This document shows positions 9,685 through 56,279 of a DNA stretch of 64,000 nt, piece by piece. Where the stretch lies: positions 62,001 to 126,000 of the forward strand of contig JAFYBZ010000014.1 of NCBI GenBank assembly GCA_017539905.1, read 5' to 3'. The position numbers and the translations under genes are program-made. This stretch comes from Clostridia bacterium (GTDB lineage Bacteria; Bacillota; Clostridia; TANB77; UBA1234). Position 1 is the stretch's first letter. The number at the start of each line of letters is the position of its first letter. The notes below the pieces were generated by a model, which was given only the letters and a program-made list of their open reading frames with translations, did no database searches and was not told the origin of the DNA.

Positions 9685-9702
9685 GAGAGGCACCCGCCTC
9701 TC
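9685..9702 (-). terminator. Terminator of the two-gene coiled-coil unit
   Basis: GAGAGGC/GCCTCTC stem with a 4-nt loop and a T-run on the minus strand. It overlaps the stop codon of the 176-aa gene. Confidence 0.8.
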
Positions 9703-10231
9703 AAACAATGTACCAGAAGTACTTTTCAGGATTGGTTAAAATCCCTTCAAGTTTGTGCAAGGCATTCTGCATTCGCTTTAAACCTTGCTCCTCTTCCAAA
9801 ACCTTGAAAAACCCTTGAAGCCGCTCCTTCTCAGTTTCGATATCCTCTTTTGTCTCAGCAATAGTCTCTCGGACTTCGTCCTCTTGGAAATCACCACTGC
9901 TTGCTTCCATCGTCTCATATGACTTCAGAGACCTCTCAAGCTCTGCTACTCTTTTCTTAGCAGCTTCGAGTTCCTTATAGTTCTTATTGAAACGCTCATA
10001 GTTTTCTGTAAGCTTGTTTGTGATAACGGAGTATTCATACTGAGCCTGGGAAAGAAGCCAAACAGTGTCAAACTTATCATAGATAGGATCCAGAATCTCC
10101 AAATCCATAATATTGTCTAACACCTGAAGCCGTGTATTCTTGTTTTCCTCAGGAAGCTTCGTAGAAGCCTCTGTTTCCTTAATCCTTTTGGAAAGGAAGT
10201 CTCGAAAGTTTTTGACAGACATCATAAGCAT
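9701..10231 (-). CDS. Coiled-coil hypothetical protein, 176 aa (high-GC island gene 2)
   Basis: I do not recognise it. Long coiled coils are predicted from about residue 75 to 160 (heptad-like YKELEAAKKRVAELERSL and KERLQGFFKVLEEEQ). There is no signal or membrane segment. The ATG has GGGAGGAT 6 nt upstream. Base composition differs from its neighbours: a sample stretch near 9781-9840 is about 47% GC by count, while the surroundings are near 30%. It uses CGG for arginine at 9821-9823 and 10130-10132, a codon that is otherwise seen only at frameshift sites in this window. It is probably recently acquired. Confidence 0.75.
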   Translation of the reverse strand: MLMMSVKNFRDFLSKRIKETEASTKLPEENKNTRLQVLDNIMDLEILDPIYDKFDTVWLLSQAQYEYSVITNKLTENYERFNKNYKELEAAKKRVAELERSLKSYETMEASSGDFQEDEVRETIAETKEDIETEKERLQGFFKVLEEEQGLKRMQNALHKLEGILTNPEKYFWYIV

Positions 10232-10244
10232 TTTTTTATCCTCC

Positions 10245-10757
10245 CTATTCTTTATAGATACTCCTAAGTAACTTGTTGTGATTCATGAGATAATATAAGC
10301 AAAACCTAGCAAGTTTGTTGTCTTTCTCAAGTTGCTCATTTTCATCTTTGAGCTCCTGAATAAAAGCATCTGACTCACCACAGGCCCTATTCACCTCATC
10401 ATCTGTCAGTTTATACATATCAAAGAACGAGATTTGCCCTTTTGCCATTTTGATTTTCTTTATTTTTCTTACTTCACTAATTTTAGCTTTGTTCTTTTCA
10501 ATACGCTCTTTGGAATCTTTTGCCCAAAACTTGAGATTCCCAACGATATCTGCAACATGCTTATAAAGTGAACCTTTGAAGTAGTCCAAATCCATAAAAT
10601 CACGAAGTTTATTAGCAAATTCATGAGCTTTGTAAATGTTCTTACGCTTGCCATCCAGGTCAAACTCAGGATAGTCAGATTCAAGAAGCCGAATATCTTC
10701 CATGATCATTTCAGCGAGTTCTTCAATCGTTTTCCGGAAAATTGGATTACTTGCCAC
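10245..10757 (-). CDS. Helical hypothetical protein, 170 aa (high-GC island gene 1)
   Basis: I do not recognise it. It is mostly alpha-helical and charged, with a C-terminal coiled coil (residues ~128-150, FIQELKDENEQLEKDNKL). The GTG start at 10757 follows GGGGG by about 11 nt. It is 13 nt ahead of the second island gene and shares its higher GC and foreign codon use, with in-frame CGG at 10689-10691 and 10734-10736. The pair forms one transcription unit ending at the terminator at 9685-9702. No integrase, repeat boundary or attachment site is visible around it. Confidence 0.75.
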   Translation of the reverse strand: MASNPIFRKTIEELAEMIMEDIRLLESDYPEFDLDGKRKNIYKAHEFANKLRDFMDLDYFKGSLYKHVADIVGNLKFWAKDSKERIEKNKAKISEVRKIKKIKMAKGQISFFDMYKLTDDEVNRACGESDAFIQELKDENEQLEKDNKLARFCLYYLMNHNKLLRSIYKE

Positions 10758-10830: not shown

Positions 10831-11379
10831 TTATTTGCTAAAAATAGCCAAAAATCTACCTATTCCCGTTATTATCTTAGTGCTGTTGTTTATAGCAACT
10901 TGCTTAAATAATCCCTTACTCCATACAGTAAGAGCAGTAACAGTTGCTGTAACTAATAAAGTAGTCACTGTAATATCTGTCTGACCAAGCATTTTAGCCA
11001 CATTTCCGGCAATTAAAGCAGCAGTAGCACCACTTAATACTCCGCAAATGTCTCCAATTACATCAGCACATACATTAGATACTCTATCTGCATTTTTTAT
11101 AAGCATAAGTGATTGCTTGGCGCCTTTCTTTTTATCTGATGCCATAGCATGAAAAGGCACCTCATCAGCAGCAGTAACAGCAGTTCCAATCATATCAAAC
11201 GCTACTCCAACTAGAACAACTATTATGAGTACAATAACTGAGATTATGATATTATTTACATTTTCAACAAGTTCAGTAGAAAGCATATTAAAAACAGCCG
11301 ACAAAGCAAATGTACTTATAAAAATTAAAAGAAGCCATCTTCCCTGACTCACCTTTTCACTTTTTTTATTCTTTTTCAT
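10831..11379 (-). CDS. oapA: OLE-associated membrane protein OapA (DUF21/CNNM-like)
   Basis: 182 aa with four hydrophobic segments (about residues 14-32, 44-62, 108-128 and 138-156). Between helices 2 and 3 lies a DUF21/CNNM-like stretch (MIGTAVTAADEVPFHAM, then KKGAKQSLMLIKNADR). OapA is known to bind OLE RNA at the membrane and is linked to magnesium tolerance and alcohol or cold stress in Halalkalibacterium halodurans. I assign it from size, topology, the DUF21-like core and its place directly downstream of the OLE RNA. The ribosome site AAAGGAG precedes the ATG. A long inverted repeat separates it from the RNA terminator, so it may have its own promoter. Confidence 0.82.
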   Translation of the reverse strand: MKKNKKSEKVSQGRWLLLIFISTFALSAVFNMLSTELVENVNNIIISVIVLIIVVLVGVAFDMIGTAVTAADEVPFHAMASDKKKGAKQSLMLIKNADRVSNVCADVIGDICGVLSGATAALIAGNVAKMLGQTDITVTTLLVTATVTALTVWSKGLFKQVAINNSTKIITGIGRFLAIFSK

Positions 11380-11404
11380 CTCTACTCCTTTTATTTATTC
11401 TTAC

Positions 11405-11550
11405 CTTACTTCATAAGAATAATATATGTGGAGCAAAACAATATGATTTAGATGGAGCTCCTAGGAATTTTAAATGCTTTAGCATTTAAAATTCGCACCT
11501 TTGGTGGAGGCGACTTGTTTTGCGTATATATATTATTCTTATGAAGTAAG
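11405..11550. repeat. Long imperfect palindrome between OLE RNA and oapA
   Basis: Outer arms of 23 bp (11405-11427 with 11528-11550) are perfect, followed by an 8-bp GCAAAACA stem after a bubble. An inner hairpin, GAATTTTAAATGC/GCATTTAAAATTC, lies at 11465-11494. It fills the whole gap. It could be a mobile hairpin or a structured 5' leader of oapA. Confidence 0.8.
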
Positions 11551-11564
11551 CAAAATAAAAATAA

Positions 11565-11582
11565 CCAATACGAATGTACTGG
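11565..11582 (-). terminator. Terminator at the 3' end of OLE RNA
   Basis: On the minus strand CCAGTAC, a 4-nt loop and GTATTGG (one G-T pair) are followed by TTATTTTTATTTTG. It marks the 3' limit of the RNA transcript. Confidence 0.75.
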
Positions 11583-12172
11583 CTAAAAAATTAAAAAATG
11601 TGATAATTTACTTAGTTAATTTTATGGCTTAGGTCCAGAAGGATTTCCCTATTTTCTACTAAGATATCGCCATCTTAGTGGTTCCCCTTTAAAGAAAATA
11701 TCTAAAGCCGTCACCAGCTTAGAGTCTGGATTACCACTTAGTCCACACCTCAATCCTAAGTATATCTTACGAAATGTAAATGTTCTAGAAGATTTCCTCA
11801 AACTACAACAAACATGTTTATCCTCTTTTGCAATAGTGGTTTCAACAAAGATAAAATGCATTCACCAAAATCACTCAAGGAAGGCTACACTGTGTACCTT
11901 AAAGCCTACCTAAATATGGCCAAGGCCTCGCAGGTTTCAAGTATTTTCTGCTGTTATTTTAAAGGTTACATGCCACAAAAATACAAGTCTCCATGAGAAA
12001 AGGGTCAACGCCCATATGCCATTACGGATCGCCCTTAACTCTTAACTCTCAGATAGCACCCTCGACTGGGCGTCGCGAGCATCTACCCAAAAGCTTCATC
12101 GATTATGCCATGTCAGTGGATTTTTAGGCCCACCCTCGCATATTGTTATAGCAACTAGAATAACACATCACG
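11583..12172 (-). ncRNA. ole: OLE RNA (ornate large extremophilic RNA)
   Basis: A stretch of ~590 bp with no credible ORF and elevated GC for this genome, full of stems (for example CTAAGAT/ATCTTAG near 11660 and GTGG/CCAC near the 5' end). It has its own sigma-A-type promoter and an intrinsic terminator. OLE RNA is about 610 nt and typically sits in the nusB-xseA-xseB isoprenoid neighbourhood, next to a DUF212 gene and oapA. All these neighbours are present in order: nusB, xseA, xseB, DUF212, RNA, oapA. The call rests on size, structure-rich sequence and this synteny. I cannot run the covariance model. Ends are set from the promoter and terminator and may be off by 10 nt. Confidence 0.85.
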
Positions 12173-12178
12173 AATTGT

Positions 12179-12207
12179 ATTATACCATAAATTAGAGTAA
12201 TTTGCAA
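12179..12207 (-). promoter_or_regulatory. Sigma-A promoter for OLE RNA
   Basis: On the minus strand: TTGCAA (12207-12202), 17-nt spacer, TATAAT (12184-12179). Predicted start of transcription near 12172. It starts 4 nt beyond the stop of the DUF212 gene, so the RNA can be made independently of the upstream operon. Confidence 0.82.
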
Positions 12208-12210
12208 ATT

Positions 12211-12663
12211 CTACAAGTCCCAGATATGACACAATAGTAGTCCCATGCATATTCCAACTAATAATCCTACGATTACTTCCATAGGAGAATGTCCCAAAAA
12301 CTCAACTAGCTTTTCTTGAACATTAATCTCTTCTCCATCAGTCTCTATAATCTTGTTTAATACTCTAGCTTGCTTTCCAGCTGCTCTTCTAACACCAGCA
12401 GCATCATACATAACTATGAAAGTAAAAACGGCTGCCAATGCAAAAGTAGCGCTTCCAAATCCTTCTGTAACGCCAATAGATGTAGCTAAACTACTAATGC
12501 AAGCAGTATGCGAACTTGGCATGCCACCTGCTCCTATAATTCTTTTAAAATTAATTTTACTTTTTCTATTAGTTATTATTTCATAAATCAACTTGAATAG
12601 TTGAACCAAAAACCATGTTATGAGTGGAATCCAAAGAAGCTTATTCTTTAATAATTCGGTCAT
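12211..12663 (-). CDS. Divergent PAP2 family membrane protein (DUF212)
   Basis: The signatures GGMPSSHTA and YDAAGVRRAAGKQA identify the divergent PAP2/DUF212 (YuiD-like) family. These are small membrane proteins related to acid phosphatases, of unknown substrate. 150 aa with three hydrophobic helices. Known OLE RNA loci often have this gene immediately upstream of the RNA, which supports the locus assignment. It follows xseB by 27 nt. Confidence 0.9.
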   Translation of the reverse strand: MTELLKNKLLWIPLITWFLVQLFKLIYEIITNRKSKINFKRIIGAGGMPSSHTACISSLATSIGVTEGFGSATFALAAVFTFIVMYDAAGVRRAAGKQARVLNKIIETDGEEINVQEKLVEFLGHSPMEVIVGLLVGICMGLLLCHIWDL

Positions 12664-12690: not shown

Positions 12691-12921
12691 TTACTCTTCA
12701 AAAGTTTCTTCTGTGTATTCACCATCTTTATCTTTTACTAAAACTGTAATACTCTTTTCTGCTTTATCCAAAAGCTCATTACAATAATTTGATAATTCCA
12801 TTCCCTTTTTGAAATTGTTTACAGATTCGTCTAAAGTAAGTTCACCTTTTTCTAAGTTAGTAACAATTTCTTCTAGATTATTCATAGCTTCTTCAAAACT
12901 TAACTCTTCACTTTTTTTCAT
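12691..12921 (-). CDS. xseB: Exodeoxyribonuclease VII small subunit
   Basis: 76 aa with the XseB pattern SFEEAMNNLEEIVTNLEKGE then TLDESVNNFKKGMEL. The start ATG overlaps the xseA stop (ATGA), so it is translationally coupled to xseA. Because full-length XseA needs a +1 shift, ribosomes must complete that shift to reach this coupling site. Confidence 0.93.
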   Translation of the reverse strand: MKKSEELSFEEAMNNLEEIVTNLEKGELTLDESVNNFKKGMELSNYCNELLDKAEKSITVLVKDKDGEYTEETFEE

Positions 12922-14181
12922 TTAACACTAACCTCCACTTTTCCATCACTCAATGTAAGTAGTAAATCCTCTTTTACTTTAACATCTTTAGTACTCTTAA
13001 TTATTTTGCCTTCTTTATTCTCTACAATAGAATAGCCTCTTGTAAGTGTTTTAAGTGGGCTTAAAGCATCAAGATTTGAAGCTATCTTAACTAATTCCAA
13101 TTTCTTATTTTTCAATTCTAGCTTTGCATTCAAACAAAGATTCTTAGTATTCTTATCCAATAGCAGTCTTCTATTTGCAAACATTGAAATAGGATCTTTA
13201 AATACTTTTGAGTTAATAACTTTTTTATATTGCAATTTCAAATTTTCTAATTTCTTAGAAAGCGAAATTGATAAATTTCTATTTATATTATTTAACTTCC
13301 ATTTAATTTCTGATAATTCAGGTACTGCTAGTTCTCCGTGCTGCAGATGGTGTAGGCGCTCTTAAATCAGCAACAAAATCTGCAATTGTAAAATCAGTTT
13401 CATGCCCTACTGCAGAAATAATAGGAAGTTCAGAATCATAAATTGCATGTGCAGTGATTTCTTCATTAAAAGGCCACAGGTCCTCAAGCGAACCTCCACC
13501 ACGAGCAATAATAATTACATCAACATTTTTCTCCCTATTAAAATAATTAATACCATCACAAATTGTTTCAGCTGCTCCTGCTCCCTGAACTGCAGCAGGA
13601 AATAATTTCAAATTTACACTTGGAAATCTTCTTGTTGTTACATTAATTATATCTCTAATAACAGAACCTGTTTTAGAAGTAACAACTCCAATTGATTTTG
13701 GAAGCATAGGAATTTCTTTTTTGTGTTCTTCATCAAACATACCTAGTTTTGAAAGTTTCTCTTTAAGCTCTTCAAACTTTCTATAAAGATCTCCCAAGCC
13801 TTCTTGTTCCATACCCTTAACATATATCTGATAAATACCGTCTCTTTCATAGACAGCGCATGTACCAAAAACTACAACTTGCATTCCATCTTCAGGATCA
13901 AATCTAACATTAGGAGTATATGATTTAAAGCAAACACATTTAATAAGAGCATCCTTATCTTTCAAAGTAAAATACCAATGACCAGTATAATGTTTTTTAA
14001 GGTTTGAAATCTCACCTTTAACATACACATTGTTTAGAAACTCATCTCTATCTACTAAATCCTTAATATATAAATTCAGCTCCTTAACAGAAATAGGAGC
14101 TGGTCTTTCAAACTTAGGACTATTATTCTGTATTAACATGTCGAAATCTAATTGTCCATCCAAAACTTTATAATCCTCCAT
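12918..14181 (-). CDS. xseA: Exodeoxyribonuclease VII large subunit, requires a +1 frameshift at CGG
   Basis: XseA trims single-stranded DNA in repair. The N-terminal OB-fold (residues ~28-125) precedes the catalytic domain with IIIARGGGSLEDLWPFN and SAVGHETDFTIADFVADLRAPTPSAA. The zero frame then reads CGG (13338-13336) and stops five codons later at 13318. Skipping one base gives GGA GAA CTA GCA (G-E-L-A), which continues SEIKWKL... through the C-terminal helical region to 12918. Total length is 1264 nt, exactly 421 codons plus one base, about 420 aa and normal for XseA. There is no other lesion. Either a programmed +1 recoding site or a frameshift mutation; see findings. Confidence 0.9.
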
Positions 14182-14193
14182 AATATGTATTCA

Positions 14194-14316
14194 AGTTTGC
14201 ATCAAAATTATTGTATTGCAAGGAAAAATGATTGTGAGGAGCGGAATCGTATGTGTATACGTTGAGCACCGCAGCAATCATTTTGACACAGCAAGACAAT
14301 GATTTTCATGCAAACT
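14194..14316. repeat. Long interrupted palindrome between nusB and xseA
   Basis: Nested stems: AGTTTGCAT/ATGCAAACT, AAAAT/ATTTT, ATTGT/ACAAT, TTGC/GCAA, AAAATGATTG/CAATCATTTT, and an inner GCGG..CCGC stem with CGTAT/ATACG. The right arm ends on the last base of the nusB stop codon. It occupies almost the entire gap in the transcription unit. Confidence 0.78.
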
Positions 14317-14730
14317 TACTTATTCTCCTTAATAATCTCTGCTAATATACCGTTCACGAAGCTTGAAGACGAGTCTTCTCCAAAAGCTTTCGACAACTCC
14401 ACTGCCTCATTAACAGAAACCTTGCATGGTATGTCATCAACAAAACAAATTTCATAGATTGCAAGTCTTAATATTGCCAAATCAATTTTGTTGATTCTAT
14501 TAAAGTCCCAATCTTTAAGATGTGACTTAATTTTTTCATCTATAGTTGAACGATTGTTTGAAATTCCGAGAAAGAATATTCTCAATATATTTTTCATCAT
14601 CTTGAGATATTTCTTCTTGCTCTTCATCACTCTCAAAATATCTATCATATAACTCCATTATATCTTCATCTTGAAAAGCAAGTTCAAATATAATCTTAAA
14701 CGCTATCTTTCTCGCCACGGTTCTACTCAT
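14316..14730 (-). CDS. nusB: Transcription antitermination factor NusB, requires a +1 frameshift at CGG
   Basis: NusB joins NusE in rRNA antitermination. The first 54 codons read MSRTVARKIAFK...YIENILS. Next comes CGG (14568-14566), and the zero frame stops at 14536. A +1 shift gives GGA ATT TCA (G-I-S), then TIDEKIKSHLKDW, the conserved IDLAILRLAIYEI and KVSVNEAVELSKAFGEDSSSSFVNGIL. NusB proteins have a conserved glycine at the shift position (the ILxGV region), so the recoded product is the expected one. The length of 415 nt is 138 codons plus one base. NusB is a core protein, so simple loss of function would be surprising. Confidence 0.9.
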
Positions 14731-55807: not shown

Positions 55808-56026
55808 TTATTTACCTCTCCAAGTAATACGACCTCTATTTAAGTCGTATGGAGACATTTCAAGCTTAACTTTGTCGCCTGGAAGAATTCTAATATAATT
55901 CATTCTAAGCTTGCCTGAAATATGGGCATGTAACTTATGTCCATTTTCTAATTCAACTATAAATTCAGCATTAGGAAGAGCTTCTGTAACAACTCCCTCT
56001 ACTTCAATAACATCTTCTTTAGACAT
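55808..56026 (-). CDS. infA: Translation initiation factor IF-1
   Basis: 72 aa OB fold ([20 protein letters not shown]). The ATG at 56026 follows GGGAGGT by 4 nt. It overlaps the end of the KOW gene by 8 nt, so the two are coupled. Confidence 0.96.
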
Positions 56027-56279
56027 TAGTACCTCCCAATTTTTTAAGTGCCCTTTTAACATCCTGATTAGTGATTTTTGACTTATTTTTGATTTTGTTT
56101 ATCAAATCTTCAACTTTGAAATCTTGCTCAGCCATATGTTTAAGCTTTTTAAGCTTAGGATTTTCGACTTTGTGGATTTTACCATCCACAATATATGCAA
56201 AATTGTCCTTAATTTCGGTAACTATAAAGTAATTACCCTTATCTCTACCAGCAAGTGACAAGACTATACTGCCGAACAT
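56019..56279 (-). CDS. oapB: KOW-domain RNA-binding protein (OapB, OLE-associated protein)
   Basis: 86 aa. A KOW fold ([21 protein letters not shown], residues 3-23) precedes a basic region ([11 protein letters not shown]) and helical C-terminus. The same gene lies between map and infA in Bacillus relatives, where the homologue was named OapB and binds OLE RNA. Because this genome appears to have OLE RNA and oapA, OapB is the likely role. The family also occurs in bacteria without OLE, so the role is an inference. The ATG has a weak, distant ribosome site. No map gene is upstream here. Confidence 0.8.

Follow-up and report, generated by a model that had tools for sequence, protein, structure and literature searches.

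What does the stretch between a DUF212 gene and an oapA-like gene encode in this Clostridia bacterium: a functional OLE RNA with a transcription unit of its own, and with the protein partners known from Halalkalibacterium halodurans? A preliminary description, made from the letters of the 64,000-nucleotide stretch analysed here (the window), had placed an OLE RNA there on the minus strand.

Identity and pairing of the OLE RNA

The RNA, its closing helix and its two neighbours lie as follows.

11584-12187, minus strand: OLE RNA, bounds of the match to Rfam RF01071
12167-12171, minus strand: 5' strand of helix P1, GTGAT, with partner ATCAC at 11604-11600
12211-12663, minus strand: upstream neighbour, a DUF212 (divergent PAP2 family) gene, PF02681 with E 2.8e-47
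10831-11379, minus strand: oapA, encoding a membrane protein of 182 residues, by homology with the gene after OLE in many genomes

An Rfam search of the window returned two matches, one tRNA and the OLE RNA, the latter running from 12187 to 11584 on the minus strand and scoring 379.5 bits (E 6.1e-108; gathering score 50 bits) over positions 1-616 of the 616 in the model. A genome search found a single OLE copy. When the Rfam pairs were mapped onto the window sequence, 129 of 143 were canonical; 500 shuffles averaged 58 such pairs and never exceeded 74. The preliminary description had named a high-scoring minus-strand match to the Rfam OLE model as the check on its identification, and both the full-length match and the canonical pairs bear that identification out. 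Its account of the flanks also stands, with the PF02681 match upstream and an OapA orthologue downstream. The locus adds a member to an RNA class that has been described before.

The window's family is probably UBA1234 in the GTDB taxonomy, a family within the order TANB77 (PMC12270094), and was sampled through 13 genomes, the window's own being a draft with a reported contamination of 9%. An alignment of 24 OLE sequences (11 from this family, 3 from sister families and 10 others) has 87.3% of its cells paired under a structure taken from Rfam, not derived from the aligned sequences, to which P1 was added; sliding the 3' partners by one to three columns leaves 41-48%. Both sides have changed in 112 of 148 pairs, and the covariation score is 0.515, as compared with at most 0.152 for the slid partners. 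P1, which is unpaired in the Rfam structure, is paired in 99.2% of cells, both sides having changed in three of the five pairs. The weakest helix is P7, 50% paired, a value that the alignment of so variable a region may explain. In the window itself the P9 stem is short, and P7 fits the Rfam model poorly.

DUF212 adjoins OLE in several loci of the family. The window's OapA shows a sub-threshold Pfam match to CNNM (E 7e-6, score 26.2 against a cut-off of 28.4), a relation already published for OapA (PMC11332333). A viral link was considered and rejected: no OapA was found among viral contigs, nor did the locus match phage DNA. Further upstream, xseA (12918-14181) occupies two frames with a break near 13330, where APTPSAA is followed by GELAVPEL in another frame, which may be an assembly error; nusB (14316-14730) is likewise read in two frames, its apparent frameshift lying about 1.2 kb from the break in xseA. 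Downstream of oapA, the interval 9701-10757 encodes predicted proteins of 176 and 170 residues, dissimilar to each other, for which no confident Pfam or NCBIfam match was found.

Transcript ends and the OLE-oapA spacer

Three features bear on how the RNA would begin and end, and on what separates it from oapA.

12179-12207, minus strand: predicted extended -10 promoter of OLE, TTGCAA-17-TATAAT with TGG before the -10 box, at a position conserved in relatives
11552-11585, minus strand: predicted intrinsic terminator, a 10-bp stem and U-tract (hairpin 11585-11562)
11391-11564, core 11416-11537, minus strand: long imperfect inverted repeat between terminator and oapA

The promoter, summarised as TTGCAA-17-TGGTATAAT, starts three bases past the DUF212 stop and consists of TTGCAA (12207-12202), a spacer of 17 nt and TATAAT (12184-12179) with a TG extension. 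Promoter-like sites number 10 in the 2.2-kb region, with 8.6 expected, so a single site is not above chance. Conservation adds a different kind of evidence. An equivalent promoter precedes P1 by 7-13 nt in 10 of 11 loci of the family, the window's included, and by 6-8 nt in each of the 10 sampled sister-family loci; the relatives' promoters are TG-extended with spacings of 17 or 18 nt, and in comparison with Markov shuffles p is below 0.05 for 18 of the 21 loci. Because the genes upstream of OLE vary among the family loci, mere shared descent of the flank is a poor explanation for this conservation. The predicted terminator hairpin has a dG of -11.5 kcal/mol (z -4.8), and none of 200 shuffles was as stable.

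The preliminary description had proposed both ends from the window alone. Its promoter, TTGCAA-17-TATAAT, now finds an equivalent in 20 of the 21 loci sampled from the family and its sister families, and its intrinsic terminator behind OLE is upheld by the 10-bp hairpin, the U-tract and the z-score. Since part of the -10 box falls within the Rfam bounds, the transcript probably runs from about 12172 to about 11555, ends to which the previously proposed extent of 12172-11583 comes close.

Terminator-like hairpins occur at the 3' end of OLE in all four members of the window's genus, by script or by eye (L006 and L007 by eye only); outside the genus, L012 is the only family locus with such a hairpin. 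In most family loci beyond the genus no terminator was seen between the two, some of the gaps being 3-14 nt, and transcription there may pass straight into oapA. The conserved promoter before P1 and, in the genus, the predicted terminator before oapA could allow more of the RNA to be made than of OapA. For H. halodurans, transcription of the ole cluster into a single polycistronic RNA has been reported (PMC12265935), so an autonomous unit would not be the rule everywhere. In one locus of another family genome (L015, genome G007) the two ends of OLE continue into a P1-like stem of much greater length, with no promoter match upstream; that RNA may be made or processed differently.

The spacer between OLE and oapA measures 204 nt and contains the inverted repeat, whose fold has a dG of -68.9 for 189 nt (z -12.9). 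The genome has one further copy (L003, 1501-1622), situated between dnaJ and dnaK and sharing 89% identity with the first across 122 bases; no copy was found in 12 other genomes of the family. The two copies have different outer arms of 12-13 bp, but within each copy the arms pair with one another, as would be expected had the repeat entered a palindromic site. From these sequence features, the likeliest identity is a small mobile element such as a MITE. An RNA motif linked to OLE is unlikely, because the second copy sits at dnaJ/dnaK, oppositely oriented relative to its genes, and the 12 other family genomes lack the repeat.

Partner proteins and their sites in the RNA

In H. halodurans, OLE RNA binds OapA, OapB, OapC and bS21 and is found at the membrane, and the organism needs it in cold, in ethanol, at high Mg2+ and on poor carbon sources (PMC12265935, PMC12054373, PMC9723947); the purified RNA forms a dimer (PMC12286853). 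Genome-wide, the window's genome contains genes for all four partners, OapA, OapB, OapC and bS21. OapB and the sites relevant to OapB and OapC are within the window.

56019-56279, minus strand: oapB, 86 residues, directly upstream of infA, phmmer best PDB match 7k9b
11705-11720, minus strand: hairpin P12.2 with a GGTGAC loop, OapB docking region (presumed)
11659-11678, minus strand: hairpin P13, CTAAGATGGCGATATCTTAG, predicted OapB binding loop of the form TGGCGAY
12096-12102, minus strand: conserved TCGATGA element, in 10 of 11 family OLE sequences, the window's included

Residues 2-81 of the window's OapB align by phmmer with 7k9b, OLE-associated protein B (E 1.1e-7). The gene holds the same position in 12 of 13 genomes of the family, and in the window the gene upstream of it is not map. 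A KOW (PF00467) search of the genome had returned only two frames, of 186 and 107 residues, taken as NusG and L24; absence of OapB from the genome was considered on that ground, but is rejected since oapB was found upstream of infA. We take P12.2 to be the OapB docking region on the basis of the OapB-OLE structure. Its GGTGAC loop and the GGCGAT loop of P13 are shared with the OapB-OLE complex (PDB 7k9b and related entries), to whose protein the OapB orthologue aligns; the P13 loop ends in U in the window (GGCGAU) and in C in the Rfam consensus. The loop reads TGGCGAT in the window and TGGCGAY in all 11 family OLE sequences, and AGYAAT in ten from sister families.

The OapC/YbxF gene lies elsewhere in the genome, on contig C17, with rpsL directly after it; the best PDB matches of its product, an L7Ae-type k-turn protein, are the YbxF entries 4lck and 3v7e (E 3e-11). 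The TCGATGA element is taken to belong to the k-turn for OapC near P5, a k-turn described previously (PMC9723947). The bS21 gene is on contig C38, outside the window. No CorC_HlyC protein, the mark of MpfA, was found in the window's genome.

The window's OLE resembles that of H. halodurans and other Bacillota in its coverage of the full model, in having oapA directly downstream, and in its motifs and long-range helices. It differs in the short P9, the weak pairing of P7 and the apparent promoter and terminator of its own, set against polycistronic transcription in H. halodurans.

The proposed OLE unit, competing readings and relatives in the order

Taken together, the evidence makes it highly likely that the locus specifies a functional OLE RNA of about 600 nt, transcribed as its own unit and working in a membrane ribonucleoprotein with OapA, OapB, OapC and bS21 that aids stress tolerance. 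The extended -10 promoter just past DUF212 would start the RNA and the intrinsic terminator would end it at about 600 nt, with oapA expressed by read-through or from a separate promoter. P1 would close the RNA on itself while the rest folds into the structure of the class, and assembly with the four proteins would yield a membrane complex that supports tolerance of stresses including excess Mg2+. We infer membrane location, binding and stress function from the work in H. halodurans and from the conserved sites and partners.

The OLE RNA might instead be cut from a longer operon transcript, the promoter-like site being incidental. The upstream genes are co-directional, the lone promoter match is not above chance in an AT-rich region, and H. 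halodurans offers the polycistronic precedent cited above; against this, a TG-extended site recurs 6-13 nt before P1 in 20 of 21 loci, including those with differing upstream genes, and we regard the operon reading as unlikely. It is very improbable that the locus is a relic in decay, whose RNA has lost pairs and whose oapA has had a repeat inserted ahead of it: 14 of the 143 mapped pairs are indeed non-canonical and the repeat does sit in the spacer, but most of the pair losses fall in the variable P7-P9 region, the insertion is outside the RNA, and neither the invariant motifs nor the reading frame of OapA is disrupted.

A further reading concerns the order rather than the transcript. OLE variant 1, described in TANB77 by Fernando and Breaker in 2024, has a shorter P7-P9 region, lacks the P13 nucleotides bound by OapB, and occurs where OapB and OapC are largely absent (PMC11332333). 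The window resembles it in its apparently shortened P9 and, by inference, in its order, so a reduced RNA working with OapA, without OapB and OapC, could be envisaged. The P9 span is 46 nt in the window and 83 and 124 nt in the two full-length OLE sequences that were comparably measurable; the P7 span, 56 nt, falls inside the spread of the other OLE sequences, many anchors for these spans not having been found. This reading is quite unlikely, as the OapB-binding P13 loop is intact in 11 of 11 family sequences and the OapB and OapC genes are both present.

Eleven of the 13 family genomes have both OLE and OapA, and the other two have neither. One of these (G005) is 89% complete in 220 contigs. 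The other (G009, 97% complete) also lacks OapB, and alone in the family it has a CorC_HlyC protein, which agrees, in one genome, with the anticorrelation already published for MpfA and OLE (PMC11332333). OLE was found in 165 of 287 genomes of the order, with eight of the 10 best-scoring loci coming from the window's family. Two sister-family genomes, G039 and G283, have two OLE matches each, either split hits or real duplicates.

When OapB was sought in four sister-family genomes, infA was not found in the stretches around OLE. The loss of OapB in sister families rests on one genome, G169, in which some 86 nt separate map from infA and contain no OapB gene, and almost the whole of which, when scanned, gave no confident match to OapB or YbxF; its OLE has an AGTAAT loop, and TCGTTGA in place of the window's TCGATGA. 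The locus L008, from the window's own genus, also has TCGTTGA, and no L7Ae match was found in its genome (G003), but that genome is 84% complete. Within this order of gut Clostridia with reduced genomes, probably TANB77, the window's family carries the full set, a sister-family genome lacks OapB and its loop and has an altered form of the presumed k-turn element with no OapC found, and G009 lacks OLE, OapA and OapB and has an MpfA-type protein. From this series we tentatively suggest, at chances a little below even, that the OLE machine has been dismantled stepwise in the order, docking sites being lost with their proteins, and that OLE there is self-standing with its own promoter.

To our knowledge, OLE RNA has no known biochemical function after some 20 years. 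As a discovery the locus is ordinary, and its value lies mainly in the natural series to which it belongs, in which close relatives have lost parts of the machine. Relatives without single partners, or without OLE, OapA and OapB but with an MpfA-type protein, are natural comparisons for the functions of the parts; G009 supports, inside one family, the published idea that MpfA can stand in for the OLE complex, and the conserved promoter offers a simple test of OLE's own regulation.
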